From Luteolibacter pohnpeiensis (GTDB taxonomy: Bacteria; Verrucomicrobiota; Verrucomicrobiia; Verrucomicrobiales; Akkermansiaceae): DNA of 64,000 nt. Both the position numbers and the translations under genes were made by a program. Shown piece by piece: positions 6,729 to 59,841 of this stretch (position 1 is the first letter of the stretch; each line of letters starts with the position of its first letter). The stretch spans positions 1-64,000 of the forward strand of contig NZ_JAENIJ010000006.1 in the NCBI RefSeq assembly GCF_016595435.1, written 5' to 3'. The notes beneath the pieces are model-generated. The model saw nothing but the letters and a program-made list of their open reading frames with translations, ran no database searches and was not told the origin of the DNA.

Positions 6729-7925
6729 ATGAAACCCCCGGGAATCCAATATCAGCCTGTTTCCGGAATGGTCGCCACCAAGCGCCCATCCTTGAAATCT
6801 CGCGATTTTCCGGCTGCAGCGGCAGAATTGCCAACGCGGCGGATTGCTGCGAGATCGGCCATTTTGGTGACCCTGACAATGGGCGATTACGATCCGCGTA
6901 TTCATCTTGGGTTTATCCGTGCCGGGCGAGAATTGGGATGGAATATTCAGGAAATCCGCGAATTTTCACAGGATTTCACAACTCCTTGGAAGTTGGAGGC
7001 TGGTGATTGCAGCATCCGGCTTTTTCCGGCAGACGGATTTTTCACCAAAGAGTCCCACGGAAGAGCGGTTTCGTTGCCATTTGCCGCAGCCGGTGCAGCA
7101 GCGGCGAAGCATCTGATCGCGTTGAACTATCCGCATCTTGCATTTTTCTATAGCCATCCAGATCAGATCCGTGGGCGCATGTTTGAGTCATTCGTTCGAT
7201 GCTGTGCGGAGGCTGGCAAGGAGGTGATTCCGTTGGCTGGGGATTTGCAAAGTGGTTTGGAGGCGTGCCATCGGACCCTTGAAATGCTCAAATCCCTACC
7301 GCTGCCCTGTGCGGTTTTCGCGGCAAGCGATGAAGACGCAGCCGCTTTGATCAATGCGGCTGCCACGATCGGGATCAGCGTGCCTTCACAATTGGCGGTG
7401 CTTGGTTGCGGAGATCACGAAATCGCCCGCGCCAAGTGCCATACCGGATTGTGCTCGATCGACCTCAACCACGAGCTCGCAGCTTACACGACTGCGAAAT
7501 TGTTCCATCATTTACTGAGTGGCGATGCCATCGCCGAGACGAACTGGACGGTGAAGCCGGGCAAGCTGATCGAACGCGAATCGAGCGGTAAAAATGGATC
7601 TCATCCAGGAGTCAGCCATGTTCTTGCCCGTATTGAGAAGGACTACTCAGAGCCGCTGGCTGTGCCGCAATTGGCGAGAGAGGTCGGCATGTCGGTCCGC
7701 ACCTTGCAGCGCATGTATGGTGCAATGACTGGCAGCGTGATCGGCGAGGATCTGCTGATCCGGCGACTCAATGCTGCTTCCAAATTGTTGAAAAACAGCG
7801 ACTTAAAATTAGAGGCGATCGCTCACATGGTGGGCCTTGGGAACGCCAATCGCCTTTGCCGTTTATTTCGCGCCCGTTTCGGTTGCACCCCCAACCAATG
7901 CCGAATGGAGCCTGGAGCTCACTAA
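6729..7925 (+). CDS. AraC-family regulator with XylR-like sugar-sensing domain
   Basis: The 398-aa protein has two parts. Residues about 40-280 resemble the LacI/periplasmic-binding-protein fold used by XylR-type regulators, with features such as DPRIHLGFIRAGREL, VFAASDEDAAALINAA and VLGCGDHEIA. Residues about 295-395 are an AraC DNA-binding domain with two helix-turn-helix motifs (VPQLAREVGMSVRTLQRMY and LEAIAHMVGLGNANRLCRLF). Such proteins switch on sugar catabolic genes when the sugar binds. The gene ends only 46 nt before the rhamnosidase start on the same strand, so rhamnose or a rhamnoside is the obvious candidate effector; this is inferred. Confidence 0.85.
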   Translation: MKPPGIQYQPVSGMVATKRPSLKSRDFPAAAAELPTRRIAARSAILVTLTMGDYDPRIHLGFIRAGRELGWNIQEIREFSQDFTTPWKLEAGDCSIRLFPADGFFTKESHGRAVSLPFAAAGAAAAKHLIALNYPHLAFFYSHPDQIRGRMFESFVRCCAEAGKEVIPLAGDLQSGLEACHRTLEMLKSLPLPCAVFAASDEDAAALINAAATIGISVPSQLAVLGCGDHEIARAKCHTGLCSIDLNHELAAYTTAKLFHHLLSGDAIAETNWTVKPGKLIERESSGKNGSHPGVSHVLARIEKDYSEPLAVPQLAREVGMSVRTLQRMYGAMTGSVIGEDLLIRRLNAASKLLKNSDLKLEAIAHMVGLGNANRLCRLFRARFGCTPNQCRMEPGAH

Positions 7926-7971
7926 ACCATCATTTTCCAAGCAAAACCCAAATTTAGTCCTTAACACATTC

Positions 7972-10900
7972 ATGTTCCACCAGAACCAAAACCAAAAGTC
8001 GTCATCCAGGCGGCTACGTACGCCAGCACTGGCGACGGCGTTGGCAATTTCCAGTTTCATGCCATTGCATGCAGCTTTGGAAGTTGCGAATCCGCGCTGC
8101 GAATACCTGACAAATCCCCAAGGGATCGATCAATTGAAGCCACGTTTTTCGTGGATCGTGGAATCGGCAGAACGGGGAGAGAAACAAACCGCGTGGCAAT
8201 TGCTTGTTGCGTCGAGCCCGGAGGAGTTGGCTTCAGACCAAGGCTCGGTTTGGGACAGCGGCAAGGTGATGGGCGATGAAACGAGTCAGATCGTTTATGC
8301 GGGGTCAGATCTCGTATCCAGAGAGGTTTGCTATTGGAAAGTCCGCTCCTGGAACAAGGATGACGAGCCATCCCCATGGAGTGAAACGGCGACATTCAGC
8401 ATGGGTCTGCTCGAATCGAGCGATTGGTCAGCCAAGTGGATCGACGGCTTGCTTCCCGTGCCGACGAGTTCGGAAGATCAACAACGGGTGATCGTTTCCG
8501 CAACTTATGGTGCGGTTACCGGAACGGGTTCTTACAACGTGACAGCCCAACTGCAGGAGTTGGCTGCGGAGGGTAACTACGCGCTTCCAGTCACCAATGA
8601 TACCTTCGGTGGAGACCCGGCCTATAATAGCCTCAAGCAGCTTCGTGTCGTTTACACCATCAACGGCCAGACCCTGGTGAAGACCTTCGCGGAAGACACG
8701 TTGATCATTTTTCCGGCGGATTTGCCGGGGATTTTGGAGCCGGAAATCACCAGCGCTCGATACGAGTCAGTCGCCGGGACCGGCTTTAATGACGTGACTG
8801 CCAAGCTGGCGGCACTGGACCAAGGCGAGCCTTACTCGGTGGTGGTGAACAATACCAACTTCGGCCCTGACCCAGCTTACAACCAAGTGAAGCAACTCCG
8901 GGTCAACTATACCCTGAATGGTTTGTCGGGAGTGGCTTTGTTCGCGGAAAACGTCACCTTCAATTTCCCAACCGATCTTCCCGAGCTGGTGGAAGCGCCG
9001 ACGTTGACGGCGGCTACCTACACGGCGATTGACGGTTCGGGGAGTAGAAATGTTCTCGCTACGTTGAACACAAAGGCGGCCGCCGGTTCCTTCTCGTTGG
9101 TCGTTAATAATGCCAATCTCGGTGGCGATCCCGCACCGGATAAAGTCAAGCGGCTGATTCTGGAATACGAATTGGATGGAAAGCAGGTGGTGAAATACTT
9201 CGACGAGGCGGCCACTCTGAATTTCCCATCCGATCTGGCGGAGCCAACGAATGTCCCGTATTTGCGCAAGAGCTTCACGGTGGATAAGCCGATCGCGAGG
9301 GCGACGGTCTATGCGACCGCGTTGGGACTTTACGAACTTTCGCTGAATGGCAGCCGCATCGGCGATCATACCCTGGCACCGGATTGGACGACTTATGATA
9401 AGCGCCTGCGTTATCAGGCTTTCGATGTGACGGCCCAATTGACGAATGGCGAAAACGTCATCGGTGCTCAACTGGCGAACGGCTGGTATGCCGGTCACAT
9501 CGGCAACGGTGGTTACCAACATTGGGGCGTTAGCCCGGCATTGTTTGCCCAGATGGAAATCACCTATGAGGATGGTTCCACCCAAACGGTTGTCACCGAT
9601 GGCAGCTGGAAGATGGGCAACAGCCCGCTCAACTTCACCGACTTCATGTATGGCGAAGATTACGATGCGCGCCGTGAAGTGGCAGGTTGGAATGCTCCTG
9701 GATTTGACGATTCAGCCTGGTCCGGCGTGCTCTTGCGGCCGGGCACCGATGTTCCGATCGATGCCCAAGTGATGGAGCCTGCCCGCGAAGTGATGGAGAT
9801 CAAACCGATTTCGCTGAGTGAGCCAGCCACCGGCAAATGGACCTACAACATGGGCCAGAACATGGTCGGCGTTTTGCGCCTGAAAATCACAGCAGAGGCT
9901 GGAACGAAAATCACCCTCCGCCATGGTGAACGCCTCAACCCGGATGGGACTCTCTACACCGCGAACCTTCGGGGGGCACCCTCCATCGATACCTACATTT
10001 GCAAAGGTGGGGGCGAGGAAACCTGGCAGCCGAAATTCACCTTCCACGGCTTCCAATATGTCGAACTGACGGGGATTTCCGAAGCTCCGACACTCGACAC
10101 CATCACGGGAATTGTCATCGCATCCGACACTCCGAAAACCGGCGAATTGACCACTTCGGACGGCGTTGTGAACCAACTCCAGTCGAACATCGAGTGGGGT
10201 CAACGCGGCAATTACCTCAGCGTGCCGACCGACTGCCCGCAGCGCGACGAACGCTTAGGCTGGATGGGTGACGCGCAGGTTTTCATCCGCACCGCCACCT
10301 ACAATGCCGATGTCGCAGCCTTCTTCACCAAGTGGCTGCAGGATGTCCGCGATGGACAATACACCAATGGCTCTTACCCAGACGTAGCCCCTGATGATGC
10401 CCCATCCAGCGGCACACCAGCATGGGGTGATGCCGGCGTCATCTGTCCGTGGATCATTTATGAAGCCTATGGCGATACCCGCATCCTTGAGGATAGCTAT
10501 GCTTCCATGGTGGGTTGGGTGAATTTCTGCAAAGCAAGCTCGCCGAACTACATCCGCACCCTCAATCGCGGCGGTGACTACGGTGACTGGCTTTCAATCA
10601 ATGCCGACACCAGCAAGGAAATGATCGGCACTGCGTATTACGCCTACTCCACCAAACTGCTTGCGAAAGCAGCAGCAGTCCTGGGGAAAACCGACGATGC
10701 CGCAACTTATGAGGCATTATTCCAGTCGATCAAAAGCGCTTACATCGCGAAGTATGTGAACACCACCACCGGTGTCATCACCAGTGATACCCAGTGCGCT
10801 TACCTGATGGCATTGAAGTTCGATCTGCTTCCAACCGATGCCTTGCGTGAACTCGCCACCCAGCATCTCGTCGATGATATTGCGGCAAAGGGAACTCACC

Positions 10901-11997
10901 TTTCCACCGGATTCGTCGGGGTCAGCTACCTGCTGCCGGTCCTGACTAAGATGGGTCGCACGGATGTCGCCTACCAATTGCTGCACCAGGACACTTTCCC
11001 ATCCTGGATGTTCTCCATCAAATATGGAGCCACCACCATTTGGGAGCGTTGGGATGGATGGACGCCTGAGAACGGATTCCAAACCACGATCATGAACTCG
11101 TTCAACCACTACTCGCTCGGCTCATGTGGCGAGTGGCTGTATGGCACGGTTGCGGGTATTGATATGGATCCTGAAGTTCCAGGTTACAAAAAGATCGTCA
11201 TCCACCCTCAACCCGGCGGCAAACTGACCAGCGCCAAGGGTAGCCTGAATTCCATCCACGGACTGATCTCGACATCGTGGCGCACCTACGAAGGTGGCTT
11301 CACACTCGAAACCGAGATCCCCGCGAATACGACTGCGACCGTTTATGTTCCAGCGACGGGTGAGGATGACGTGAAGGAATCCGGAAAAGCGATCGCTGAT
11401 GCCGAGGGTGTTTCCTTCGTCGGCATGGAAGGTGATTTCGCCGTCTTTGCGGTGGAGTCCGGGCGCTATCGTTTCACCTCAGGGGATGGCGTGGATCCTG
11501 GTGGAGACACCGTGATGCACGATGCCGGCGCGCCGGTGAAAATCCGCATTTCCACCCTCATGGGAAACGACGGGGATGGACCTTATGAGTTTGTCTCGGC
11601 CGGTCCGACCAGTGTCAACGGTGGCACGATTTCCGTCCAGGACGGATGGGTGATCTACACTCCTGCTGCAGGAGCTTCCAGCACGGGTGACTCCTTCACT
11701 TACTCCATCCGCGATGAAAACGGAGGCGTCAGCACCATGACTGTCGAGGTGGACTTGATCCCGGAAGACGCTCCTGTGCAATCCACTCTGGATTTTGGCA
11801 TGAATCAGGATGGGTCACGGCGCATTGTGTTTCTAGGGGTTCCGGGCCGGATTTACCGAGTTCAGATGGTCGACCACCTCGGCACGGATGATTGGCAAAC
11901 CGTTGCTAGCGTTCAGGCGGATGAAGATGGGAGCTTTGAATACCTGGACACGGCTTCGGCTCCTTCGGCCCGTTTTTACCGTGCGGTCTTCCCCTGA
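7972..11997 (+). CDS. Secreted alpha-L-rhamnosidase, GH78, with a triple domain insertion
   Basis: This 1341-aa enzyme would hydrolyse terminal alpha-L-rhamnose outside the cytoplasm. I chose the ATG at 7972 because it gives a signal peptide (to about residue 35); the frame stays open further upstream but overlaps the regulator. An N-terminal beta domain (NPRCEYLTNPQGID) is followed by three ~85-residue repeats near 174, 259 and 345 that resemble DUF3395 (ATYGAVTG, ARYESVAG, ATYTAIDG). The GH78 N, catalytic and C domains run from about 430 to 1160. They include DCPQRDERLGWMGD at 754 and WERWDGW with Glu1025, the expected acid and base regions. The C-terminus has a cadherin-like segment (about 1180-1262) and a 70-residue tail of a type seen in secreted Verrucomicrobia proteins. 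Confidence 0.88.
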   Translation: MFHQNQNQKSSSRRLRTPALATALAISSFMPLHAALEVANPRCEYLTNPQGIDQLKPRFSWIVESAERGEKQTAWQLLVASSPEELASDQGSVWDSGKVMGDETSQIVYAGSDLVSREVCYWKVRSWNKDDEPSPWSETATFSMGLLESSDWSAKWIDGLLPVPTSSEDQQRVIVSATYGAVTGTGSYNVTAQLQELAAEGNYALPVTNDTFGGDPAYNSLKQLRVVYTINGQTLVKTFAEDTLIIFPADLPGILEPEITSARYESVAGTGFNDVTAKLAALDQGEPYSVVVNNTNFGPDPAYNQVKQLRVNYTLNGLSGVALFAENVTFNFPTDLPELVEAPTLTAATYTAIDGSGSRNVLATLNTKAAAGSFSLVVNNANLGGDPAPDKVKRLILEYELDGKQVVKYFDEAATLNFPSDLAEPTNVPYLRKSFTVDKPIARATVYATALGLYELSLNGSRIGDHTLAPDWTTYDKRLRYQAFDVTAQLTNGENVIGAQLANGWYAGHIGNGGYQHWGVSPALFAQMEITYEDGSTQTVVTDGSWKMGNSPLNFTDFMYGEDYDARREVAGWNAPGFDDSAWSGVLLRPGTDVPIDAQVMEPAREVMEIKPISLSEPATGKWTYNMGQNMVGVLRLKITAEAGTKITLRHGERLNPDGTLYTANLRGAPSIDTYICKGGGEETWQPKFTFHGFQYVELTGISEAPTLDTITGIVIASDTPKTGELTTSDGVVNQLQSNIEWGQRGNYLSVPTDCPQRDERLGWMGDAQVFIRTATYNADVAAFFTKWLQDVRDGQYTNGSYPDVAPDDAPSSGTPAWGDAGVICPWIIYEAYGDTRILEDSYASMVGWVNFCKASSPNYIRTLNRGGDYGDWLSINADTSKEMIGTAYYAYSTKLLAKAAAVLGKTDDAATYEALFQSIKSAYIAKYVNTTTGVITSDTQCAYLMALKFDLLPTDALRELATQHLVDDIAAKGTHLSTGFVGVSYLLPVLTKMGRTDVAYQLLHQDTFPSWMFSIKYGATTIWERWDGWTPENGFQTTIMNSFNHYSLGSCGEWLYGTVAGIDMDPEVPGYKKIVIHPQPGGKLTSAKGSLNSIHGLISTSWRTYEGGFTLETEIPANTTATVYVPATGEDDVKESGKAIADAEGVSFVGMEGDFAVFAVESGRYRFTSGDGVDPGGDTVMHDAGAPVKIRISTLMGNDGDGPYEFVSAGPTSVNGGTISVQDGWVIYTPAAGASSTGDSFTYSIRDENGGVSTMTVEVDLIPEDAPVQSTLDFGMNQDGSRRIVFLGVPGRIYRVQMVDHLGTDDWQTVASVQADEDGSFEYLDTASAPSARFYRAVFP

Positions 11998-35038: not shown

Positions 35039-38000
35039 GTGCCCGCGAAGAAGAAATCCACCTCTCATTCCTCTGACTCAAAAGCGACCGCCCACGAGGT
35101 GATCCGCATTCGCGGAGCGCGCCAGCACAATCTCCGGTCGCTCGATCTCGACATCCCGCTCGGTCAACTGACCGTGGTTACCGGGCCGTCCGGATCAGGC
35201 AAATCCTCATTGGCCTTCCACACGCTCTATGCGGAAGGTCAACGTCGCTACGTCGAAACGTTTTCTCCTTACGTCCGGCAGTTTTTCGACCGGATGGATA
35301 AACCGGAAGTGGATCAGATCGAGGGCATCCCTCCGGCGATCGCGATTGAACAAAAAAACAACGTTCGCACCACCCGGTCGACGGTCGGCACCCTTACCGA
35401 AATCAATGACTACCTGAAGTTGCTGTTTCCGCGTCTTGCCACGGGACATGACCCGGAAACTGGCGAGACCATCCAGCCGGATTCGCCGGATTCCGCTGCC
35501 GCCTGGGCTCAGGAAAACCTCGCAGGCCAGGCCCTGCTGGTGGTTTTTCCGCTATCCATTCCGCCTGATACTGCTGCTACGGATCTGTTTCCATTCCTCA
35601 GCCAACAAGGCTATCTGCGCATTCTCCATCGTGGGGAAACCTTGCGGACGGACGAACCGGCACCGCCTGATTTCAAATTGGCAACGGGTTCGGTTTTGGT
35701 GGTGCAGGATCGGTTGAAGTTGAGCGCAAGTTCAACCACCCGGTTGCTGGAAGCGCTTGAGGCAGCATTCGTGCTTGGAAAAGGCAATGCGGGCATCGCT
35801 TACGCCGCGGGATCTGGTTCGTCGACCGATCAACTGCGATCTTTCACCACGGGCTGGACCAACCCAAATACGGGCTTCACCCTCCGTCCTCCCACCGCCT
35901 CACTGTTTTCGTTCAACAATCCACTGGGTGCCTGCCCGAAATGCCGGGGCTTTGGCCGCGTGATCGGCATCGATTTGGAAAAAGCCGTTCCCGATGGCTC
36001 GCTTAGCATTGCGGAAGGCGCGATCAAACCGTTCCAAGGCGAGCGGGGCGATGAGTGCCAGCGCGACCTGATTCGCTGCTGCAAAGAACGTGGCATTGAA
36101 ATCAAAACACCGTGGGAGGACCTTGAACCCAAGGAACGCGAGTGGATCTACTATGGGGATCGTAAGTTGAAGGAGATCACTCCGGAAGCACTTGAAGAGC
36201 TCTGGCAGTCCGGTGATTGGTACGGGGTGAAGGGGTTCTTCGATTGGCTGGAAACGAAGTCCTATAAGATGCACGTCCGGGTATTCCTATCCCGGTATCG
36301 TTCCTACACCACGTGCTCGGAATGCCGTGGCAAGCGGCTCCAACCCGAAGCACTGTGTTTCAAGATTGATGGAATGACATTGCCCGAGCTATGGCAGCTA
36401 CCCATCGATGAACTCTTGCCATGGATTTCACGGCTAGTTGAGGGGCATTCATCATCCAATGCACCATCAGATCCGACATTGGATCTTGTTCTAACCGAAA
36501 TTAAGTCACGCCTGACCTATCTGGAACAAGTCGGCCTTGGATACCTGACCCTGGACCGGCCAACCCGCACGCTTTCCGGGGGAGAGATTGAACGGGTCAA
36601 CCTGACAACCTGTCTTGGTGCGTCTCTAACAGGGACTTTGTTTGTGTTGGATGAACCAACAGTGGGACTGCACGCCAGAGATATTCACCGATTGGTTGGG
36701 GTGATGCACGGGCTGCGCGACAAAGGGAATACCCTGGTCGTGGTGGAGCATGAGCAAGCGGTGATGCAGGCGGCGGATAACCTGATCGATATCGGACCAG
36801 GGGCGGGTCAGTTTGGTGGGCAGTTGGTCTATCACGGACCACTTACACCGTCGGTTCAGTTCAAAAAAGGAACCCTGCCATGGCTCCGTGGGGACCGGGC
36901 GATTGCCATTCCGAAAAGCCGAAGGCAGCCCGGAAAGAAAATGCTCAAAGTTCGCGGCGCGACCCGGCATAACCTGCGCAAACTGGATGTCGATTTACCA
37001 CTGGGCCTTTTCCTGTGTCTCACAGGAGTTTCGGGTTCCGGCAAATCAACGTTCGCCCATGATGTGCTTTATGCCAATCTTGCGAACAAGTTCCGCAAAG
37101 AGGGGAATGACCTTGAGGCCGCGCCCATCAAAGATCTACTGGGTTCACAGTATTTGGATGATGTTCAACTGGTGGACCAATCACCGATCGCCCGCACTCC
37201 GCGATCGACGCCGGCGGTGTTTCTCGGCGCCTTCAATCAGATCCGGCAACTTTTCGCTCTAACCGATGAGGCGAAATCACGTGATCTAACGACGGGCTTT
37301 TTCTCCTTCAATTCCGGAGCGGGTAGATGCGATCGCTGCTCTGGCAATGGATTCGAGAAGGTTGAGATGCAATTTCTATCCGATCTCTACGTGACATGCC
37401 CGGATTGTGGCGGGCGTCGTTACAAGTCCTCCACGCTGGACATTCATTATTTTGGCAAATCCATCGCCGATGTTCTGGATTTCACGGTTGATGAAGCGAT
37501 GGAGTTCTTTGCGGATACCTCAGGTCTTAGCTCGCCGGTCGCCAAGCGCCACGGTCAGATCCGCTCCCAGTTGCAGCCTCTGGTCGAGGTGGGGCTTGGG
37601 TATTTGAGGTTGGGCCAGCCTCTGAACACGCTCTCCGGCGGTGAGTCGCAACGGCTGAAACTTTGCCAGCTATTGGCTTCAAATCTGGAGGGAGCACAAG
37701 GGGCGAACAAGCTGCTGATTCTTGATGAACCGACGACCGGACTCCATTTCTCCGATATTGAGAATCTGTTAGGCGTGTTCCAAAAGCTGGTTGATGCTGG
37801 TCACACCTTGTTGGTGATTGAGCACAATATGGATGTGATCAAGTCCGCTGACTGGATCATCGATCTCGGCCCTGAAGCCGGGAAAAATGGCGGCAAGCTG
37901 GTCGCGGAAGGGCCACCTGAGAAGATCGCCTCACTCGATACGGAGACGGCTCGGTTTTTGAAGCCTGCGCTTGCCGGGAAAGAGGAACTGGAACGAGCGA

Positions 38001-40660
38001 TTCCCAAGCCATACATTCCAAGCTCGCACTCGATCAGTCTGCGCGGCGCACGCCATCACAATCTGAAAAACATTTCGGTGGATCTGCCGCGCGATCAATT
38101 CGTGGTGATATCCGGCCTGTCTGGCTCAGGGAAATCGACGCTCGCATTTGACATCCTATTCGCAGAGGGGCAGCGCCGGTTCCTTGATTCGATGTCAGCC
38201 TATGCGCGACAGTTTGCAGAGCAGTTAGAGAAGCCCGAGATTGATCAACTGCAAGGTTTGCCGCCGACAGTGGCGATCGAGCAGCGGGTATCCCAAGGCG
38301 GGGGGAAATCCACGGTTGCCACCGTAACCGAGCTCTGGAATTTCATCCGGTTGCTCTATTCGAAACTCGGAACTCTCTACTGCCCGGATTGTAAAATTCC
38401 GGTGGAGAAGCAATCGTTGTCCGCGATCGAGAATGCGATCCGGGTACATCTGAAAAAGGGAACGGTTCGTATCCTGGCGCCGTTGATCCGGGCGAAAAAA
38501 GGTTATCACACCGATGTCGCCGAATGGGCGTTGAAGCATGATTTCACCCGCTTGCTGGTGGATGGTGAATTCCGTGACTCGGAGAACTTCGAGCGGCTTG
38601 AGCGATTCAAAGAGCACGACATCGATGCGGTGGTTGCGGAAATTTCAAAGAATGGCGTGAAGGAACTCCCCGCTGCCATCGAAACTGCACTCACCCATGG
38701 CAAGGGCATTTTAAAACTCCACACCGCACGTGGTGAATTGATTTTGCTTTCCACCCACGCAAGCTGTCCGTCCTGCAATCGCTCGTTCGAAGAATTGGAC
38801 CCCCGGCTGTTTTCGTTCAACTCGCCCCACGGTTGGTGTTCGGAATGTCGCGGTCATGGCCGGGTGCCCAAACGTCGTCGCCAGCGGTTGGATACCGCAC
38901 GCTTTGATTCTGTCCTCGAAGCCGAAATGGATGCGGATCGGGCAATCGAACGAATGGATGATGATGAGCTGGTCGAATGCTCGGGATGTCATGGAACGCG
39001 TCTGAATCCTACGGCATCCATCGTACATTTGAAGGATACGCCGGTGTCGGCGCTGGCTAGGCTTTCGATTGATCATGCTGCAACCCATTTCAAATCGATC
39101 AAATTTGGCGATGCCCGTGACTCCTTGATTGCCCGCGATATTCTTCCTGAGATTCGCCAGCGATTGTCGTTCCTGCAGGAAGTCGGCCTGGGTTACCTCC
39201 AATTGGATCGATCAGGAAACACTTTGTCGGGTGGCGAGTCCCAGCGGATCAGGTTGGCGGCTCAATTAGGCTCTAACTTGCGGGGTGTGCTTTATGTGCT
39301 GGATGAACCAACCATCGGTTTGCATCCGCGCGACAATGCCGCACTGCTCACGACCTTGGTTTCTCTCAAAGATCAGGGGAATTCTCTCATCGTGGTGGAG
39401 CACGATGAAGACACGATTGCAGCTGCAGATCATTTGGTGGATCTGGGGCCGGCCGCCGGGAGACTTGGCGGGGAAGTGGTCTATCAGGGAAAGCCTCCTC
39501 AGATTTCTGTAAAATCAGGAAAGCCATCCACACGCAAGGAACTCGCAAACTCACCAACCTATCGGGCGCTGACTCATCCGATTGTGCATCCAAGCCGAGG
39601 GGAGCGCCGCCCGGTTGATAAGGCTCATCCCTTCTTAACTGTTAGTGGTTGTACGGCGAACAATCTGAAGGATATTGATGTGTCCATCCCGCTTGCGAGG
39701 TTGACGGTTTTGACCGGCATTTCGGGATCAGGGAAATCGACGCTGATGCATCAATGCATCGCTGTTGCCGCTGCGGCGGATGCCGGTCGCAAACGGAAAT
39801 CCGCGAATTGGAAATTCAAAAAGTTCAGCAACTTCTCAAATATCAAGTCCACCTACGAAGTAGATCAGTCTCCGATTGGCAAGACGTCGAGGTCGTGTCC
39901 CGCGACTTATGTGAAAGTGTTCGACCACATTCGCGCGCTCTACGCGCAGCTGCCCGATGCACGGATTCGTGGATTCGATGCATCCCGGTTTTCATTCAAT
40001 ACCGAAGGTGGTCGCTGTCCTGAATGCAAAGGCAACGGGCGGATTAAATTGGAAATGGATTTCCTGCCGCCAACGTGGGTGCACTGCGAAGCGTGCAATG
40101 GACAGCGTTATAATCCGGCGACTTTGGAGGTAACTTTCCGTGACAAAAATATCGGAGAGGTGCTCGCCATGACGATCGATGACGCAGCTGAATTCTTCGA
40201 AAGCCAGCCGCGCATTTCCGCGCCGCTGCAACTCCTCGCCGATACCGGCCTTGGTTATTTGCAGCTCGGCCAGGCATCCCCAACCTTATCCGGTGGAGAA
40301 GCCCAGCGCATCAAACTGGTTTCGGAACTGATTCGAGGCCGCGGCACCAAGGCGACCCTCAACAACGCGGCGATAGCTGCGAGAAACCTCTATTTGATCG
40401 AAGAGCCAACGGTTGGATTGCACCTTGAAGACATCAAACGGTTAATCGATGTGCTCCATCGCCTTGCGGATGAAGGGCATACCGTAGTCGTAATCGAACA
40501 TCACATGGCAGTGGCCGCAGAGGCCGACTGGATATTGGATATCGGCCCAGAAGCGGGCGAGAATGGCGGCGCCATCGTTGCTGAAGGACCGCCGGAACAG
40601 ATCGTAAAATCGAAGAAATCCCGTACTGCACCATTTTTGAAAACGGCTCTCGGAATATAA
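35039..40660 (+). CDS. uvrA: Double-length UvrA, tandem fusion with four ABC domains
   Basis: At 1873 aa this is about twice the usual ~940 aa of UvrA, the ATPase that detects DNA damage and loads UvrB in nucleotide excision repair. Four complete ABC units occur. Walker A lies at 49-57, 663-671, 1026-1034 and 1560-1568; LSGGE signatures lie at 512, 865, 1396 and 1750. Walker B is LDEP at 538, 896 and 1422, but the fourth reads IEEP (1788-1790). Zinc-finger CxxC pairs occur in each half. The first half lacks the CPxC pair after its Walker A that the second half has (LYCPDC). The second half starts near residue 1010. The start is a GTG. Chlamydial UvrA is similarly doubled, so this is probably a PVC-group trait. 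Confidence 0.93.
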
Positions 40661-41693: not shown

Positions 41694-44600
41694 TCAGCGG
41701 TTCGAGTTCAGGCGCGTGAACAACTTTTCGTTCTGGGTGATGGTGCGGGGAATTTTGACAAGTACCCGATCGATCCCGGGTCCGTATTGATCCGCATCTT
41801 GTGTAATGAGCACTCCATTGACCCCAGCTTCAGCGGGTAGCCATGAAGTTAGATCCGTGCTATATTCCACAAATGGATAAGGCGGGATGTTCGCCCTCGC
41901 CATGCGGCGGTAAGAGAATTCGTAGAAATCTCCCTCTAACAAGGTGACTGGCATTTTGCTGAGATCGTTGGCAAGTAGAGGGTTGCCGCCAGTGATGAAT
42001 TCGATCGCATTAGGAATTCCATCGTGATCAGGATCGGCGGCGGGTGCCACATCTGACCCTGTTAGAAAATATGGAGCTGAGCTGATCCAGGATTCGTAAG
42101 GGTCTATCGAGCCAGTGACTCCAGACCAGTTATTACTGAAACGGATCGCATCAAGTTCGCCTGTGGTGTTGGAACTGGAGCCATTCAGCCAGACGAGTAA
42201 ATGGTCGGCGATCATCGAAGAATCGATACTATCACTTGCGGTCCATGTGATGGTAGAGGGATCACTTTCAATGACATCACCGGAGCTGTAGCGCTTGATG
42301 TCGATTTGATCTGGTTCAGTTGAATGAAGCGAGATCCTCCCGACTATCAACGCGCTGCCGTTGATGCTGCCCATGGGTTCGTGATTCCTGATGCCATACG
42401 GGCCGCTATCATTACTAAGAGTTCCGTAGCTAATGTAGGTGCTATTTCCGGCATCGATTTCACCAGTTGCCAGAGTTCGGGCATTATTCCAGGAAAGACC
42501 CGAACCGATGAATTCTGCACTGCCATCTGCCCCGGATGCCAACCCGATGCCCATGCAGCTGTCTCCGCTGTTGTCGGCTCGGAAACTGAAGTAGATCGTG
42601 CGTTCAGAAGAAAAATCGATGGAGTCAGTTAGTGGACGTGTTGCGTAAATGGTGGTTCCCCAGCTGTTTGTATTATTCCAGAGTCCACCGTCCAGTCCGT
42701 CACTTGGTGGCAAGCCCGGAAGGGAGGCTCCGGTGTTGAAATTGCTGGCAGTAAAGATTCCGTCGTTTCCGTTGGTCATCCATGCTCCAGTCAGTCCGAT
42801 GGTGGTTGTTGTGTCACCCTTGCCATTCAGTGTGCTATTCGTTCCGGGTGGCGGGCCAGCGATTCCATCAAATAACTCACGAATCAATAGGCTGGTATCC
42901 TCGATCGGCTCGACCGCTGTGACAACCAGATCCACGGAGGAGGTCGCGCTGTTGTTCACCAAGGTGGCGGTAATACCTGGGGTAGGTGTGAGATTGAAAG
43001 CAGACATTCCATCGCCGCCGATACTGCCATTGTAGTAGATCAACGGGTAGGTGCCTGGAGTTGCACCGGTTGATGCTGAAATGTGGATATGGTGGGCGCC
43101 AGAAGTTACCAGGCCGTCGGGAGAAGTGACCGACAAGCTGTTTGCTGATCCGCCGATGCGGAATGTCGATGCTGATCCATCTGCCAGATCCAGTCTGCCT
43201 ATGCTGCCGCTGCCTTGAGCGTAAAGATTGCCAGGAGCGATCACGGCGCCAGATGCTACATTCGCTGTTAATGACGAAGTTGTGCCGATCCGTAATGTGC
43301 CTTCCATCACATCAATGCTCCCCGAGTAGGGAGAAGGCCCGGTCAGGGCGAGAGCATTGGTGCCAGTTTTTGTTAGATTTCCCGTTCCAGATAATCCTGC
43401 TGCAAGAGAAATTTCGCCGCCTGAGGTGTCGATGGTCGCAGGAGCTGTGACATTTGGCTGAACAGCGGACGCCCAGTTGGCACTGGCTGCTAAGGTGCCA
43501 CCGGCCATTTCGAAGTTTTTGTTGGATGTAGCTCCGTTCGAGATTCCAGCAGTGCCAATGGACAGGGTTCCTCCTGTCATTTTTACTGCGGCAAATTGAC
43601 TCCGTCCGCCCCAACCAAACTCAATGCCTTTCAGGTGCACTTGCGCGGTGCCACTAATGTTCAGGGAGGCTTCACTATCCCATGAAAGGTATAACGGAGC
43701 GCCTGTTAGATCGAGCGTCCCTCCGCTGATGTTGTAGGTTACATTTGCTCCACCGCTCCATAGACCCCAGCGGTTCGATGCATTATCTCCTCCGGGGTTG
43801 TTCGTAGTCCCCGTGTTGCTAACAGTTCCTCCAGATTGATTGACCGTGAGAGCTGCCCCAGGATTCGCGCCAAGGACGAAGTCATCATGGATCAGTAGTT
43901 GCGATTGATCAGAAACTTCCAAGCTATGTGCAAGGTTACTGCCACGGTTTGTCCAACGATCCGTGGTTAGAATGGCTGACCCGCTCAGACGAACGGAACC
44001 GCCATCCATCTGAAAGGTGCTTTGGCCGGGAGAGGAAGTCGTTAAATGAACCGCCGCCATGCCATCCAGGTGAAGTGATGGAAGATTGCTGGTGGTGGTA
44101 AGTGTCAGGTTGCGTGCTGTAACGGAAGTCGTGCCTGAGCCGTAGAAATTCGCGCCGTCCAAACTCAGCGTATCCGTTAGGCCAAGCATGACATCCTCGG
44201 CAGTGAGGGAAGTCCCGCTTCCCATTGAGATGCTGGTCAGGGTGGGAAAACTGGTGCCATTTGCAAAGCTTAGTGAGGGAGCGGTGATGCCAAGAGGGCC
44301 TGCGATTGGGTGGGTTCCGGAAATTCGGATGTCGCCATCGCCTTCCAGGAGTAAACCACTACTGCCCGTTAGCTCGGATTCGATGTCCAGGCTGGCACTT
44401 TCCTCAGCACGTATGACAGCTGGCGTCATGAGCTGCAGAGATCCACCACTCAGGGTCACATCTCCTTCCTCAACCAATATTCCTTCTGCAGTTTGTTCTC
44501 CGGTAACACTGATGGTGCTGGCAGAGGTGGCATCGTTTCCGGCGGAAAAAACCGCGGAATGCCCGGATTCAGGCCAAGCTACGGTTTCCTCCGTACCATC

Positions 44601-46349
44601 TGCCGAATCAGTCCAGTTTGGATTCGTTTGATTCCAGACCCCACTTGTCGACGAGCCCGCTCCAAATTCCGAACCATTGGTGTCCCAATAAGCGTTCGCA
44701 TTGTCAGGATTGAAATCGAAAGTCACCGTCGAGTTATCAGGGCGGATCAACAGACTGGATGAATCCATCCCGTTGGAAACTTTGGCGTCTGTTGTGCGCA
44801 GGGCATACCCAAAACGATTGTGTTGGTAGCCGATGCTGCGCTCGGTGGACGTCACGATCGAGGTGGTTTGCTGAGCACTCCAGCCGAGTTCCATTCCCCA
44901 ATCGGATGGTGCATTTTCACCCGTGACTTCCAGGATGAGTTGATCGGGGCTGCAATGGATTTTCAGTTCACCGCCACTGTTGATTGGCATGCGAATCAAC
45001 AGTCCATCAGTTCCCACTTCGCTTACGGTAGGTTCACCATTTTGTAGCAACTGCCGGGTAGCTTCCAGAGTGTTGACCAGAGGTCGGATGCCCGCAAGGT
45101 CACTTGCAGTGCTCCAATGGAAACCATCCATCACAGGGAGTGTGTCGTAGGTTGCCGTGGAGCCGGTGACTCGATCCTTCAAATACCTTTCCGGATATTT
45201 TTCATTGAAAATGTGAAGGTCGCGGATCCGCCAGCTACTGCCTTCCCAGTAGAAGTTGATCCGATAAAACCGGCTTTCATACCAAATGCTGCGGTGGCCC
45301 TGGTCATCGAAATCATCCATTGCTACCACCGCGGTCGCCGGAGTGGTTTCGAAATGGTCGCGGTACCAGCTTCCGGATTGTTCGAGAGTTTCAACCCGGA
45401 TTTTGCCTTCCGCTACTTGCTCTTCCATCAATTGATATTGATCCTTCAAACCGGCTTCCATCGCAGGCCAACCGAATGAATTTTCCTGTCCGGCTTGGGT
45501 GTAAGCAAAAGCAAGATTCGGCGCGTTGAAGTTGGCATCAAAAAACCAGCGCACCCAGTCCGGCGATCCGCCACCGGGTCGATAGACTGGCTCAAGCGAG
45601 ATCACTCCCTGAATTCCATTTCCAAGGTTGTGATCATATTGATAAACCGGATCACTTCCAAGCATTCGGAAGATCGGCACGTTTAACTGCTTGTCGGTTG
45701 TCTGAGCAGGCATGAACGCATTGATACGGCTCGGGTAGTAGGCCTGATTCCAGTATCCACCCCAAAGAGTGTAGCCATCCGTGCCGCTCTGGTCTTTGCA
45801 GTTGCAGGCAGCCACAATGTGATACTTATCCGACAGATAGTTCAAGGTGGGTGCGTCTAACACCCAGCAGCCCACCGAGCGCGGGTATTCGCCAAACTCG
45901 GTTTTGAATCGTTCCATCAGGACATCCATGAGCTTTTGTCGGTCTTCAGGGGTGTAGGCTTCGGTAAGTCCGACTGCGGCGTTGTAATCCCATGGCCAGC
46001 GACCTTTCCATTCCAAACCAGCGGCCTCGACCTGTGGTTGCACGACCTCCAACCAGACGCCAATTTCGTCATTCGGTCCCAATTCGTTTTTCAGAAGATT
46101 GACAAAATCGGGGTTTACCAAGGCATCGTATTGAATGAGGAAAGTCGTCGGCAGCCCATGTTGCATCGCAAGTTGGATTTGCTGGATCACCGGTTCTAAC
46201 AAATCGACATTCGCCCTTGGTTCGGTGCCGCGGATGAAGTTGATAATGTTGACTACCTTGGGGCCTTCAGCGAAACCGCTTTGCATGGTGAGCAAGGCAG
46301 CGATTCCCAGAGCCGACAGTTTTCTGAGTCGATTGTGTTTTCGTGTCAT
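41694..46349 (-). CDS. Giant chimeric secreted protein: deacetylase-like domain, beta-helix and LamG-like module
   Basis: This 1551-aa protein has a signal peptide (to about residue 28) and at least four regions. Residues about 30-560 form a globular domain (VNIINFIRGTEPR, TTFLIQYDALVNPDF, NCKDQSGTDGYTLWGGYWNQ). It resembles a family I recall as DUF3863/DUF3864, in the NodB-like deacetylase or glycosidase superfamily, but I could not confirm this. Residues about 570-1150 are a beta-helix with autotransporter-type repeats (GNLTKTGTNALALTG, SIDVMEGTLRIG). Residues 1154-1417 are the domain duplicated in the next gene. The last ~130 residues carry DPDHDGIPNAIEF, common in secreted Verrucomicrobia proteins. 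I chose the ATG at 46349; a GTG at 46406 is an alternative. Confidence 0.8.
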   Translation of the reverse strand: MTRKHNRLRKLSALGIAALLTMQSGFAEGPKVVNIINFIRGTEPRANVDLLEPVIQQIQLAMQHGLPTTFLIQYDALVNPDFVNLLKNELGPNDEIGVWLEVVQPQVEAAGLEWKGRWPWDYNAAVGLTEAYTPEDRQKLMDVLMERFKTEFGEYPRSVGCWVLDAPTLNYLSDKYHIVAACNCKDQSGTDGYTLWGGYWNQAYYPSRINAFMPAQTTDKQLNVPIFRMLGSDPVYQYDHNLGNGIQGVISLEPVYRPGGGSPDWVRWFFDANFNAPNLAFAYTQAGQENSFGWPAMEAGLKDQYQLMEEQVAEGKIRVETLEQSGSWYRDHFETTPATAVVAMDDFDDQGHRSIWYESRFYRINFYWEGSSWRIRDLHIFNEKYPERYLKDRVTGSTATYDTLPVMDGFHWSTASDLAGIRPLVNTLEATRQLLQNGEPTVSEVGTDGLLIRMPINSGGELKIHCSPDQLILEVTGENAPSDWGMELGWSAQQTTSIVTSTERSIGYQHNRFGYALRTTDAKVSNGMDSSSLLIRPDNSTVTFDFNPDNANAYWDTNGSEFGAGSSTSGVWNQTNPNWTDSADGTEETVAWPESGHSAVFSAGNDATSASTISVTGEQTAEGILVEEGDVTLSGGSLQLMTPAVIRAEESASLDIESELTGSSGLLLEGDGDIRISGTHPIAGPLGITAPSLSFANGTSFPTLTSISMGSGTSLTAEDVMLGLTDTLSLDGANFYGSGTTSVTARNLTLTTTSNLPSLHLDGMAAVHLTTSSPGQSTFQMDGGSVRLSGSAILTTDRWTNRGSNLAHSLEVSDQSQLLIHDDFVLGANPGAALTVNQSGGTVSNTGTTNNPGGDNASNRWGLWSGGANVTYNISGGTLDLTGAPLYLSWDSEASLNISGTAQVHLKGIEFGWGGRSQFAAVKMTGGTLSIGTAGISNGATSNKNFEMAGGTLAASANWASAVQPNVTAPATIDTSGGEISLAAGLSGTGNLTKTGTNALALTGPSPYSGSIDVMEGTLRIGTTSSLTANVASGAVIAPGNLYAQGSGSIGRLDLADGSASTFRIGGSANSLSVTSPDGLVTSGAHHIHISASTGATPGTYPLIYYNGSIGGDGMSAFNLTPTPGITATLVNNSATSSVDLVVTAVEPIEDTSLLIRELFDGIAGPPPGTNSTLNGKGDTTTTIGLTGAWMTNGNDGIFTASNFNTGASLPGLPPSDGLDGGLWNNTNSWGTTIYATRPLTDSIDFSSERTIYFSFRADNSGDSCMGIGLASGADGSAEFIGSGLSWNNARTLATGEIDAGNSTYISYGTLSNDSGPYGIRNHEPMGSINGSALIVGRISLHSTEPDQIDIKRYSSGDVIESDPSTITWTASDSIDSSMIADHLLVWLNGSSSNTTGELDAIRFSNNWSGVTGSIDPYESWISSAPYFLTGSDVAPAADPDHDGIPNAIEFITGGNPLLANDLSKMPVTLLEGDFYEFSYRRMARANIPPYPFVEYSTDLTSWLPAEAGVNGVLITQDADQYGPGIDRVLVKIPRTITQNEKLFTRLNSNR

Positions 46350-46467
46350 TAATCCAGTTTCGGCATTTTGTTCCAGATGCCGATGAAACGAGAATAAATG
46401 ACGCACCCAAAACCCGACTACCCCCCCAAGTGGGCTGGATTTCCTGAAAGGCTGTTGAAGCCTCCGG

Positions 46468-47094
46468 TTACTGCGGGCCGCGAAACTTCAAGGCCGCTTC
46501 GGTCCGCGAATGCACGTGGAGCTTGGCGTAAATGTTTTTCAGGTGCCAGCGCACCGAATCCACCGAGAGATGCAACCGACCGGCCAGTTCTTTGTTGGTG
46601 AATCCATTCGCAACCAGTTCAAGGATTTCCCTCTCTCGGGGCGTCAACTTATCTACCATCTCCATCGTAGATGATTGATCGCGGAAATATTGGATGACCT
46701 TACGCGCGATGCCGCCGCTCATGGGGACTCCGCCTTGCTGCACATCACGGATTGCCTGAACAACTTCCTCTGGCGCGGATCGTTTGAGTAAATAGCCGGA
46801 TGCTCCAGCTCTCAAGGCGCTGAAAACCCTGTCCGAATCCTCATACACCGTGACCATGATCACCAAGACATCCGGCAGCAGTGCTTTGAGCTTTTGCACG
46901 CATTCCACACCGGTCATTGCTGGTAGCTGGATGTCCATCAAAACAACTTCCGGGGATTTCTTCGGCAACAATCGAAGTGCCTCCTCCGCGGTTTCATAGG
47001 CACCGACGCACTGATAATCCGGAGAAAGATCGACAATGGTCCGCAGCCCTTCACGGGTGGTTCTGCTGTCTTCGACGATGCCGATCTTGATCAT
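46468..47094 (-). CDS. NarL/FixJ-family response regulator
   Basis: The 208-aa protein has a receiver domain (about 1-120) with the acidic pair Glu8-Asp9, phosphoacceptor Asp54 in VVLMDIQLP and the Lys of LLKRSAPEE. A LuxR-type helix-turn-helix (about 140-205; LTPREREILELVANGFTNKELAGRL) follows. It is the partner of the histidine kinase immediately upstream, whose stop it overlaps by 4 nt. Phosphorylated dimers would bind DNA. The giant secreted protein gene starts about 120 nt downstream on the same strand and is a plausible target; this is inferred from position. Confidence 0.93.
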   Translation of the reverse strand: MIKIGIVEDSRTTREGLRTIVDLSPDYQCVGAYETAEEALRLLPKKSPEVVLMDIQLPAMTGVECVQKLKALLPDVLVIMVTVYEDSDRVFSALRAGASGYLLKRSAPEEVVQAIRDVQQGGVPMSGGIARKVIQYFRDQSSTMEMVDKLTPREREILELVANGFTNKELAGRLHLSVDSVRWHLKNIYAKLHVHSRTEAALKFRGPQ

Positions 47095-49202
47095 TCGATG
47101 CCTTTCAATGGGATGATGAAGTGAACCGTAGACCCGATCCCGGGTGTGGATTCAATGCTGAAATTTCCGCCAATTTGCTCAAGCCGATCCTTCATGCCAC
47201 GCAGTCCGTTGCGGTTGCCTTGTTCATCGACCGGAGTAAATCCGCTTCCATCGTCGGTAATGCGAATCAGTAGTTCTGTCGATTTTACACTTATTGCAAG
47301 TATGACTTCATTCGCGTTCGAATGGCGCACGACATTGGTTAGTGCTTCTTTTGTAGCCAGAAAAATCGCATGGCGCTGGTGGGGGCTGAGTGGGATTTTT
47401 GGAATCTGATCGTCGATCTGCAAGCGGCAACGGATTCCTGCAAGATTGAGAAATCGAGGTGCGAATAAGGAAAAGTAGTCAGCGAGATCTTCCGCTGAAT
47501 CATAGCGTGGGTTGACCGCCCATACGATCTCATCGAGGCCAGAGACAAGCGAGTGGCAGACTTGTCGGAGCTGGTCCAAATAGCCATCTTTGTCCTTGAT
47601 GGAAATCTCCGGGTTTTTCATCAGCGCGGTTAGAAACCCGGCCTCTGTTAGGCCGGACCCAAGTTCATCATGAAGGTCCTGCGCAACCCGGCTGCGCTCC
47701 TGTTCCAGAATACGGTGTCTTTCGAGTGACTCACGCTCCTCGATTTCCCTGGCAAGTTCCTTTGAACGCCGGGCCACGGTCCGATGCAGTGAAGCAACCC
47801 AGGCGACCGCTAGCAGGAGTGCGCCGCACAGAATGGTGATCAGGATAACCGTATGTTGGAAAGTCCACCATGGGCCGCGTTGCAGAACCTCGATGTCATT
47901 TTTATTCTGAAGCCTGAGTTCGAACAAATTCGAGCTGGTGGATATCTTGTTAGAAGCATTGCTAAGATAGGTGCCCGTCAGTCTGATAATGCTATTTTTT
48001 TCCAGCGGAACCAATGAGTCGGATATGCTAGGAACGTAGGCAAAGAAGTGATGGTTGCCTGAATTGCATTCGAGGATCCGCTCGTTCTGACGGACTGAAT
48101 CGCTCAACACGGTGGCTTCCAGCCGAACGCGTGTGGAATCGAACCTTGAATCCAGAATTTCGTCTGCGTGGAGCGCTATGGGAGCAGGCATTTTGGTTCT
48201 ACCAATTTTACGAATGGCTGCTTCCTGTAGGATTGGTGATGGTCCGCCCGGTTGGGAATAGCCGACGACTTCCACTTGATCGCCGGGGACGACATCGCAA
48301 TTTTTCCGGCATATGGCGCGGAAACCCTGCTCTGCGTCAGTCAGGAAAAAAAGCGGTGGCTTGGTATATAAAACGAGTCCGGTGACCTTGACTGGTTCAA
48401 GAGCATTGAGATGTGAGGCAAAGCCTAACAAATCTTTGGCGTGGGCAGCAGTTGCAGCAAATGGATTTTCCAGGGCTGGCTTCTCAAGCGTCATGACAGC
48501 ATTCCCGAGATGGAACTCGGTGGGGTGGACACGCCCAATGCTGATGTCCCAACTGGAGGCGTAGACTCCTCGAAATCGGACCAGACAACCGATCAGTGAG
48601 GTGACTTCTTCATCCGTCATTGCTTCGAATGGCAACGGGTAAAACGAATCTGATAGAATGGTTGTCGCGCCACCTTGGGTGAGAAGTTTTACCCGCGATT
48701 TGGATGCTTCGATGACCACTCCGCGGATTTCTATTTGTTCGGCATCAAGGCTGCCGCCAAGAAGCTGATCCCATGTCGGAATGATGGGCTCGGGGAGAGT
48801 CCCATGTCTAACAAAGCGCGCATCGGTGGCGTAGATGACAGGCGAGAAATCTCCTGCGCCAGTGATGCCATTGATACGCCAAATCTCGCCGGGATGGGGT
48901 TGAGGTTGCCCAGGCGGAGTTCGAAAGTGAATGTAGACACCTCCGCTGGCATCTTGGAGCACGAGTGATCGTGAATTCGACATCGTCACCACCCCTTCGA
49001 GTTCGACGTGATAGGGTCGATCCGCCTGCTCCGGTTTCAGATGGCGGACCTCGATGGCATTGGTTAGAACATTCTGTTGTTCGACTTCCTCTGTCGGAAT
49101 GGTTTCTTCCCGTGAGGTCGGTGTTTCTTTGGCGTAAGAACGAAATGAGGCAGCCAAAGCCAGTGCCGCGAACAAACAAATTTTTCCAAGGCAAAATCTC
49201 AT
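47091..49202 (-). CDS. Sensor histidine kinase (HisKA_3 type) with a large OB-like sensor region
   Basis: The 703-aa protein has a signal peptide (to about residue 25) and a ~420-residue periplasmic region. A membrane helix (about 449-471, TVILITILCGALLLAVAWVASL) and a short coiled coil follow, then the kinase core. The dimerisation box is RVAQDLHDELGSGLT with phospho-acceptor His511. The ATPase domain shows NVVRHSNA, DDGSGF and GLRGMKDRLEQIGG. The periplasmic part seems to hold three OB-like repeats, each with a pattern like VELEGVV then LVLQDASGG then PGEIWRINGI. The ligand is unknown. It is translationally coupled to the response regulator. Confidence 0.9.
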   Translation of the reverse strand: MRFCLGKICLFAALALAASFRSYAKETPTSREETIPTEEVEQQNVLTNAIEVRHLKPEQADRPYHVELEGVVTMSNSRSLVLQDASGGVYIHFRTPPGQPQPHPGEIWRINGITGAGDFSPVIYATDARFVRHGTLPEPIIPTWDQLLGGSLDAEQIEIRGVVIEASKSRVKLLTQGGATTILSDSFYPLPFEAMTDEEVTSLIGCLVRFRGVYASSWDISIGRVHPTEFHLGNAVMTLEKPALENPFAATAAHAKDLLGFASHLNALEPVKVTGLVLYTKPPLFFLTDAEQGFRAICRKNCDVVPGDQVEVVGYSQPGGPSPILQEAAIRKIGRTKMPAPIALHADEILDSRFDSTRVRLEATVLSDSVRQNERILECNSGNHHFFAYVPSISDSLVPLEKNSIIRLTGTYLSNASNKISTSSNLFELRLQNKNDIEVLQRGPWWTFQHTVILITILCGALLLAVAWVASLHRTVARRSKELAREIEERESLERHRILEQERSRVAQDLHDELGSGLTEAGFLTALMKNPEISIKDKDGYLDQLRQVCHSLVSGLDEIVWAVNPRYDSAEDLADYFSLFAPRFLNLAGIRCRLQIDDQIPKIPLSPHQRHAIFLATKEALTNVVRHSNANEVILAISVKSTELLIRITDDGSGFTPVDEQGNRNGLRGMKDRLEQIGGNFSIESTPGIGSTVHFIIPLKGIE

Positions 49203-59639: not shown

Positions 59640-59841
59640 CTTGGGGACACCATTGCTGAACCCTGGCAGGATTTTGTTTCCAAGCAGAAACTTGCCTAAA
59701 AAATAAACCCCAAGCGAAAACTACCTTCGGATGAATGGATGGCGCTGCAACCGCCATGATTCACCAAGAGAGTCTGTTCAACAATCACCTCCCCAACAGG
59801 TTACGGTGATCGCAAACGGACTTTGGTTTTGATGATTGAAT

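Follow-up and report, generated by a model that had tools for sequence, protein, structure and literature searches.

A tandem triplet resembling a circularly permuted rhamnose-binding lectin domain in a GH78 α-L-rhamnosidase of Luteolibacter pohnpeiensis

What is a domain that recalls the C-terminus of the eukaryotic protein DNAJC11 doing, three times over, inside a bacterial glycosidase? The question is raised by a 64,000-nucleotide stretch of the genome of Luteolibacter pohnpeiensis (contig NZ_JAENIJ010000006.1, positions 1 to 64,000; hereafter the window), in which the gene for an α-L-rhamnosidase of glycoside hydrolase family 78 (GH78) carries three repeats, R1, R2, and R3. An original prediction, made from the sequence of the window, likened these repeats to the domain DUF3395. 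The present analysis relates them to the rhamnose-binding lectins (RBLs; SUEL lectins): the repeats very probably have a circularly permuted RBL fold, in which the Glu-bearing hairpin has been moved to the C-terminus. That relationship, the permutation, and the slot that the repeats have in common with the carbohydrate-binding module CBM67 were all absent from the earlier account.

The three repeats of the window protein

The repeats, and a register-shifted unit that became informative in modeling, are as follows (residues are numbered along the open reading frame, or ORF).

8485–8739, plus strand: repeat R1, permuted RBL-like domain (putative), residues 217–301, with Tyr224, Asp260-Pro261, Lys267, and Glu286
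8740–8994, plus strand: repeat R2, permuted RBL-like domain (putative), residues 302–386, with Tyr309, Asp345-Pro346, Lys352, and Glu371
8995–9240, plus strand: repeat R3, permuted RBL-like domain (putative), residues 387–468, with Tyr395, Asp431-Pro432, Lys438, and Glu457
8665–8919, plus strand: register-shifted unit, the hairpin of R1 followed by the core of R2, residues 277–361, whose AlphaFold model superposes on RBL domains

Each repeat is 82–85 residues long, and the copies start 85–86 residues apart. They have in common the motifs A-x-Y, D-V-T or a variant, DP, and K-x-L-x-V-x-Y or a variant, and, in addition, a near-invariant Glu in the turn of their last hairpin. Local pairwise identities are 42/83, 34/78, and 34/80 (43–51%). 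The corresponding alignments score 194, 165, and 159, whereas the highest scores reached when each pair was shuffled 2000 times were 60, 51, and 59. The alignments and shuffles thus bear out the tandem triplet and its spacing as first described; the span given for it, 8491–9252, is correct to within a few codons, and the motif reported for it (ARYG, DVT, DP, and a K-L-x-V-x-Y pattern) was found, partly as variants. The Pfam layout likewise places the copies where the original prediction had them, before the GH78 N domain: they lie between Ig_Rha78A_N (residues 83–193) and Bac_rhamnosid_N (PF08531; residues 484–650), outside PF08531, which rules out a plain GH78 N domain. An NCBIfam scan gave no match over the repeats. 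The sole phmmer match of the excised block, a GH64 structure (E = 0.21), and a PDZ_1 match of R2 (E = 0.034) were set aside as weak.

Lectin kinship and the order of the structural elements

A profile of single copies (A1; 49 copies from 38 ORF records, one of 50, an incomplete copy in a frameshifted gene, having been dropped) found 14 matches at E ≤ 10 among all PDB sequences, and 13 of these are RBL/SUEL proteins. The best is 5h4s (1.9e-13, summed over three stretches of 14–18 bits each), with CSL3 at 2.3e-6, CSL2 at 5e-4, and latrophilin-like protein 1 at 1e-3; other latrophilins and a plant β-galactosidase fall between 0.03 and 1.2, and the sole non-RBL match is 9n2z (E = 0.44). Moreover, profile–profile comparison by hhalign with eight RBL domains gave a probability of 94.8% (E = 5.4e-8, for one comparison), with the core aligned. 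The repeats agree with RBL/SUEL domains, including those of CSL3, CSL2, 5h4s, latrophilin, and the C-terminus of plant β-galactosidase, in the core motifs A-x-Y and DP-x5-K-x-L-x-V-x-Y, in ligand-type Glu, Tyr, and Lys residues, in tandem use, and in the three-dimensional arrangement of the register-shifted model. They differ in that their hairpin is C-terminal rather than N-terminal, in having no Cys, no Arg of the YGR motif, and no GTY motif, in scoring under the curated cut-off of SUEL_Lectin (PF02140), and in having bacterial enzymes as hosts. A two-copy ORF of 177 residues at locus L134 (1488–2018, minus strand) contains the hairpin RACAEGETLDLSQC, in which, as in SUEL lectins, a Cys lies close to the Glu; judged by its sequence, this ORF may connect the permuted family with the normal RBLs.

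Each copy would consist of an RBL core, formed by the A-x-Y strand, a helix, the DP loop, and the K-x-L-x-V-x-Y strand, and then a hairpin with the putative ligand-binding Glu, the hairpin that stands first in RBLs. Modeled in its natural order, R2 gave a confident model, with a predicted local distance difference test score (pLDDT) of 93.4 and a predicted template-modeling score (pTM) of 0.83, from an alignment made up of the window and Haloferula luteola L001 sequences only. This model had no significant match in the PDB (best Foldseek E = 1.4; best VIA Z = 3.0), and no RBL stood among the best 50 of 242 Foldseek matches or the best 50 of 125 VIA matches. Because sequential aligners cannot follow a permutation, this null result neither shows nor excludes an RBL fold. 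In latrophilin-1, the first hairpin holds the rhamnose-binding Glu42 in its turn (PMC2430599), whereas the Glu of the repeats is in the last, and the contiguous residues 277–361 were therefore modeled. For this register-shifted unit (pLDDT 82.5, pTM 0.72), Foldseek ranks 1–5 are latrophilin-type lectin domains, with probabilities of 0.95–1.00 and template-modeling scores of 0.55–0.68 by query length. VIA ranks 1–9 are all RBL/SUEL, with Z from 8.6 to 6.6, the best being a latrophilin RBL (Z = 8.6, root-mean-square deviation 2.3 Å over 79 residues). Rank 10 is P113 (Z = 6.4), itself described as RBL-like (PMC7482062), followed by a PfRIPR complex at rank 11 and the BMP10 prodomain at rank 12 (both 6.2), so that the best match of no known RBL kind reaches Z = 6.2. 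At the level of the predicted model, then, the register-shifted stretch has the RBL spatial fold, and, since this unit matches RBLs while the natural-order unit does not, a circular permutation of the RBL is what the domain appears to represent.

The order of the elements was also assessed in relatives. The carrier set comprises 139 ORFs with 179 copies, drawn from 135 fetched regions and the window (Haloferula luteola L001 is not among them), and 105 of these ORFs have a single copy. Three of the 105 were dropped; in the other 102, the Glu hairpin was scored against random segments, and it passed their 95th percentile downstream of the core in 98 proteins and upstream of it in none. The figure of 98 is partly a matter of construction, because the copies were found with a profile containing the hairpin, which does not apply to the complete absence upstream. 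In addition, 19 of the 105 single-copy domains end no more than 10 residues from the end of their ORF. With the hairpin behind the core in nearly all of these proteins and ahead of it in none, the sequence order is permuted.

Several observations weigh against an RBL assignment. The RBL strand order, hairpin first, is not that of the repeats; R1–R3 contain no Cys and no YGR Arg, and thus lack the eight Cys and four disulfides that characterize RBLs, and any Cys at all occurs in only 41 of the 179 copies. PF02140 scores 20.7 bits on the three-repeat block (E = 5.4e-4), below its cut-off of 31.4, and matches just 3 of the 49 single copies, at best with E = 0.16; in a scan of the phylum it matched 0 of 194 genomes, but the control genomes were likewise without a match, so that no absence can be read from this result. 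The lack of any significant structural match for the natural-order model belongs here as well, and for the register-shifted model the best Foldseek E is 0.021, none reaching 0.001, with ranks 6–10 taken by an unrelated viral protein; AlphaFold may also have drawn on known RBL structures, and the shifted stretch need not fold as a unit by itself. A register-shifted profile (A3; 2 of 32 shifted units dropped), intended as a sequence test of the permutation, gave a mixed outcome: relative to the natural profile, scores rose for CSL3 (31.1 to 35.3 bits), CSL2 (23.6 to 31.8), and 5h4s (53.7 to 55.5) and fell for the latrophilin entries 8suf (22.6 to 21.2) and 2jx9 (16.5 to 14.6), and two dehydrogenases were newly matched (E = 6e-5). 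When A3 was compared with profile A5 by hhalign, the core alone aligned, in part because most rows of A5 lack the hairpin.

Carrier proteins, the GH78 slot, and the neighborhood

A single-sequence search found the domain in 30 of 239 genomes of the order, and a profile search across 387 genomes of the phylum found it in 75, covering 51 of 197 genera. R1–R3 are the only copies in the L. pohnpeiensis genome at E ≤ 1, and a second GH78 there has no repeats. The 139 carrier ORFs, classified with hidden Markov models (HMMs) built from Pfam-annotated examples, comprise 56 GH106, 25 GH78, 13 cytochrome-c dehydrogenase-like, 5 GH29, and 40 other proteins, some of the last being cut by contig ends; these counts describe the strongest matches, as the 100 later regions were the strongest among the phylum profile matches listed. 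Altogether, 81 of the 139 are α-L-rhamnosidases. The original prediction had pictured a domain of mitochondrial chaperones stray in a glycosidase, and with the module this widespread in the phylum and this often in rhamnosidases, that picture is misleading. The seed set (37 ORFs) held only 2 GH106 enzymes; outside it, the 102 carriers are 54 GH106, 15 GH78, 2 cytochrome-c, and 31 other proteins, so that 69 are α-L-rhamnosidases of two families. Further carriers include HEAT-repeat proteins, a kinase, Calx-beta proteins, 3-keto-disaccharide-hydrolase-like proteins, and standalone ORFs, and many copies are found at the C-terminus, or at further positions, of other enzymes. Two frames (L131:42–3410, plus strand, and L211:3304–6069, minus strand) combine a permuted RBL-like domain with matches to the hydrazine synthase alpha middle domain and PD40 repeats, the L131 frame also having a ribose/galactose isomerase domain. 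One three-copy GH78 (L035; G064:C10:128500–136500) is split across two frames within its third repeat, through either a frameshift or an assembly error.

The host gene in the window and its upstream neighbor are laid out as follows.

6729–7925, plus strand: sugar-responsive regulator, Peripla_BP_3 plus AraC-type helix-turn-helix (Pfam scan; "XylR-like" is our own label)
7972–11997, plus strand: GH78 α-L-rhamnosidase gene, likely start ATG at 7972, within an open frame 7837–11997 that has TTG at 7837
7972–8073, plus strand: probable Sec signal peptide (MFHQ...MPLHA), from visual inspection of the sequence
8083–8415, plus strand: Ig_Rha78A_N domain, residues 83–193 (PF25788, 124.2 bits)
9286–9786, plus strand: Bac_rhamnosid_N domain, residues 484–650 (PF08531, Pfam scan)
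9829–10119, plus strand: Bac_rhamnosid concanavalin-like domain, residues 665–761 (PF05592, Pfam scan)
10135–11151, plus strand: catalytic six-hairpin domain, residues 767–1105 (PF17389, 402.4 bits)
11155–11388, plus strand: Bac_rhamnosid_C domain, residues 1107–1184 (PF17390, Pfam scan)
11506–11751, plus strand: Big_9 bacterial immunoglobulin (Ig)-like domain, residues 1224–1305 (PF17963, Pfam scan)

The regulator ends 46 bases upstream of the GH78 ATG. With its signal-peptide-like N-terminus, the rhamnosidase is probably secreted. It has the core domains of GH78 α-L-rhamnosidases and the catalytic-acid Glu, and differs from them by the extra triple module: Glu805 stands opposite Glu636 of SaRha78A, by position counted on the phmmer alignment with 3w5m, and Glu636 is treated as the catalytic acid of that enzyme (PMC4690510). 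The protein ends in ...SARFYRAVFP (within 11752–11994, plus strand), and its Haloferula luteola homolog L001 in ...ASRFYRSVFP; from these sequences, the tail is a possible sorting or anchoring signal.

The interval between the Ig and N domains was measured in 28 of 30 GH78 loci (two were dropped). It spans 24–71 residues in 24 of the 28, all without a repeat. In the other four it is longer: 110 and 123 residues where there is a single copy, 195 where there are two copies, and 284 where there are three. SaRha78A (3w5m) aligns by phmmer to the flanks of this interval (query residues 79–208 and then from 476), between which lie its own residues 130–304 (175 residues), which we take to be its domain D, CBM67 (3w5m/3w5n). 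Domain D binds rhamnose in a calcium-dependent manner and raises activity on insoluble substrates (PMC4690510). The slot is thus common to CBM67 and the repeats, as is the rhamnose binding proposed for the latter; CBM67, on the other hand, is calcium dependent, and the 175 residues of SaRha78A stand against three repeats of ~85 in the window protein. No significant phmmer stretch of 3w5m covers the repeats, and at the level of that comparison their identity with CBM67 is unsupported. In a tree of 173 copies (6 of the 179 were dropped), the R1s of four three-copy genes form one group (support 0.91) and their R2s another (0.99), and their R3s hold together weakly (0.46); the copies therefore group by position, and the triplication is probably older than the species that carry it.

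Elsewhere in the window, a 1873-residue frame (35039–40660, plus strand) with two UvrA_inter stretches and a UvrA_DNA-bind match looks from its sequence like a double-length UvrA, two UvrA copies fused. A 1570-residue frame (41694–46406, minus strand) lies near a histidine-kinase-like protein (47091–49202); at E ≤ 0.001, Pfam finds nothing in this frame but a weak match to an autotransporter-associated PATR repeat. A 1300-residue frame (59836–63738, plus strand) has a sulfatase domain at residues 385–793, between a long N-terminal part without assignment and a C-terminal part.

Sugar binding, rival roles, and DUF3395

Latrophilin-1 contacts rhamnose through Glu42, Tyr63, the Gly117 N, and Lys120, and with the substitutions E42D, E42Q, and K120R binding is lost or falls dramatically (PMC2430599). 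Alignments and the shifted model place the equivalents in R1, R2, and R3 at Glu286, 371, and 457, Tyr224, 309, and 395, and Lys267, 352, and 438, so that the Glu/Tyr/Lys set is complete in all three copies. Of the 179 copies, 158 have the Glu and 14 an Asp in its place, 175 have the Lys, and 146 the Tyr, and the DP pair has its D in 173 and its P in 169; Glu and Lys occur together in 156 copies, and together with an aromatic residue at the Tyr position in 131. The DP-x5-K spacing, found in 149 of the 175 copies in which the motif was located, is alike in latrophilin (DPCPGTYK). We consider it probable that R1–R3 are noncatalytic sugar-binding modules of a permuted, cysteine-poor RBL/SUEL fold that tether the enzyme to its substrate. 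Taken separately, binding of some sugar is likely to the same degree, and the chances are about even that this sugar is chiefly L-rhamnose. Filling the Ig-to-N slot, which is the place of CBM67 in Streptomyces SaRha78A, the three weak sites would jointly engage a rhamnose- or galactose-bearing polysaccharide with multivalent, low-affinity contacts, and tethering of this kind would hold the catalytic domain of the secreted enzyme near its α-L-rhamnosyl substrate. The unrecognized carbohydrate-binding role put forward in the original prediction gains support from the RBL relationship; the sugar binding itself, its specificity, and the tethering role are what we infer.

A number of features count against sugar binding. 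The rhamnose loop of RBLs is ordered by the motif GTY (PMC7482062). This motif is missing from the window copies, which have N-S-L, N-Q-V, and D-K-V, and occurs in 2 of the 179 copies overall; at the Gly117 position the window copies have Asn or Asp, and copies of the cytochrome-c type have an aromatic residue at the Tyr position in only 5 of 13. Sugar binding is also less obvious for the HEAT-repeat, cytochrome c, and kinase carriers. Since Lys120 is buried and structural in latrophilin-1 (PMC2430599), the conservation of the Lys and the Glu may have a structural cause. The missing GTY and the buried Lys would suit repeats that have the permuted RBL fold but act as rigid spacers or structural links, setting the distance from the Ig domain to the catalytic core and binding no sugar, as would the use of one to three copies of ~85 residues each in one slot. 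A spacer, however, need not keep the Glu, which is replaced in few copies, most often by Asp, the very change (E42D) with which latrophilin-1 loses all or most of its sugar binding; nor does spacing explain the many copies that are C-terminal or elsewhere in other enzymes, or the concentration in two rhamnosidase families, and we regard it as unlikely. Less likely again is that the repeats bind a protein or cell-surface partner and so attach the enzyme to a cell or complex. The RBL-like domains of latrophilins and Plasmodium P113 are thought to bind such partners, for some RBL-like domains sugar binding has been argued against (PMC2430599, PMC7482062), and standalone and HEAT-repeat carriers would fit such a role; the retention of the sugar-contact residues in most copies, and the preponderance of rhamnosidases among carriers outside the seed set, speak against it.

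There remains the likeness to DNAJC11. Against PF11875 (DUF3395, DnaJ-like_C11_C), the excised three-repeat block scores 27.3 bits, with a cut-off of 27.1, the whole window protein 18.0, and R1 alone 15.4, and R2 alone and R3 alone have no match at E ≤ 10. The profile matches 34 of the 49 bacterial copies at E ≤ 1 (best 4.9e-7), reaches 62 bits in a standalone three-copy ORF and 55 bits in a GH106 enzyme, and finds a match in 8 of 96 genomes of the phylum, 6 of them above the cut-off; its better matches cover profile positions 41–132, that is, the core and then the hairpin. The HMM check thus indicates a genuine likeness, firmer in relatives and marginal in the window protein, and DUF3395 was rightly named, but only as distant kinship; neither a lack of HMM similarity nor a plain GH78 N fold, which together had been named as grounds for giving it up, was found. 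The bacterial copies have the element order of DUF3395 and some relatives exceed its cut-off; the window protein differs in that it has no J domain (none in the Pfam scan at E ≤ 10), is probably a secreted glycosidase, bears a tandem triplet, and scores marginally. These differences, together with the finding that the PDB matches of the copy profile are RBLs, make it highly improbable that the repeats, as members of DUF3395, share a chaperone-related role with DNAJC11, a role for which the PF11875 matches would speak. Because the module is phylum-wide and mostly in rhamnosidases, the C-terminal domain of DNAJC11 looks like one distant branch of the fold of the repeats, and the permuted RBL kinship may account for the unexpected resemblance between the repeats and a portion of this mitochondrial chaperone. 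A YDJ1-like model had been proposed earlier for the DNAJC11 C-terminus (PMC4128653); in the open-licence literature, at the level of listings, we found no published link of DUF3395, DNAJC11, or rhamnosidases to permuted RBLs.

Collectively, these results incline us, by a modest margin of belief, to a wider proposal, in which an unrecognized family of permuted RBLs provides the rhamnose-targeting modules of Verrucomicrobiota α-L-rhamnosidases, as a new carbohydrate-binding-module family, and DUF3395 of DNAJC11 is a eukaryotic member, perhaps without sugar binding. The permuted RBL reading predicts the fold of the DNAJC11 C-terminus, and offers a fold and a testable function for DUF3395. It would also connect a lectin family of animals with the breakdown of polysaccharides by bacteria, and it suggests that two unrelated types of module, CBM67 and the permuted RBL, occupy the same slot in GH78 enzymes. 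If the binding is true, the repeats would represent a new carbohydrate-binding-module family that marks many of the rhamnosidases of the phylum.
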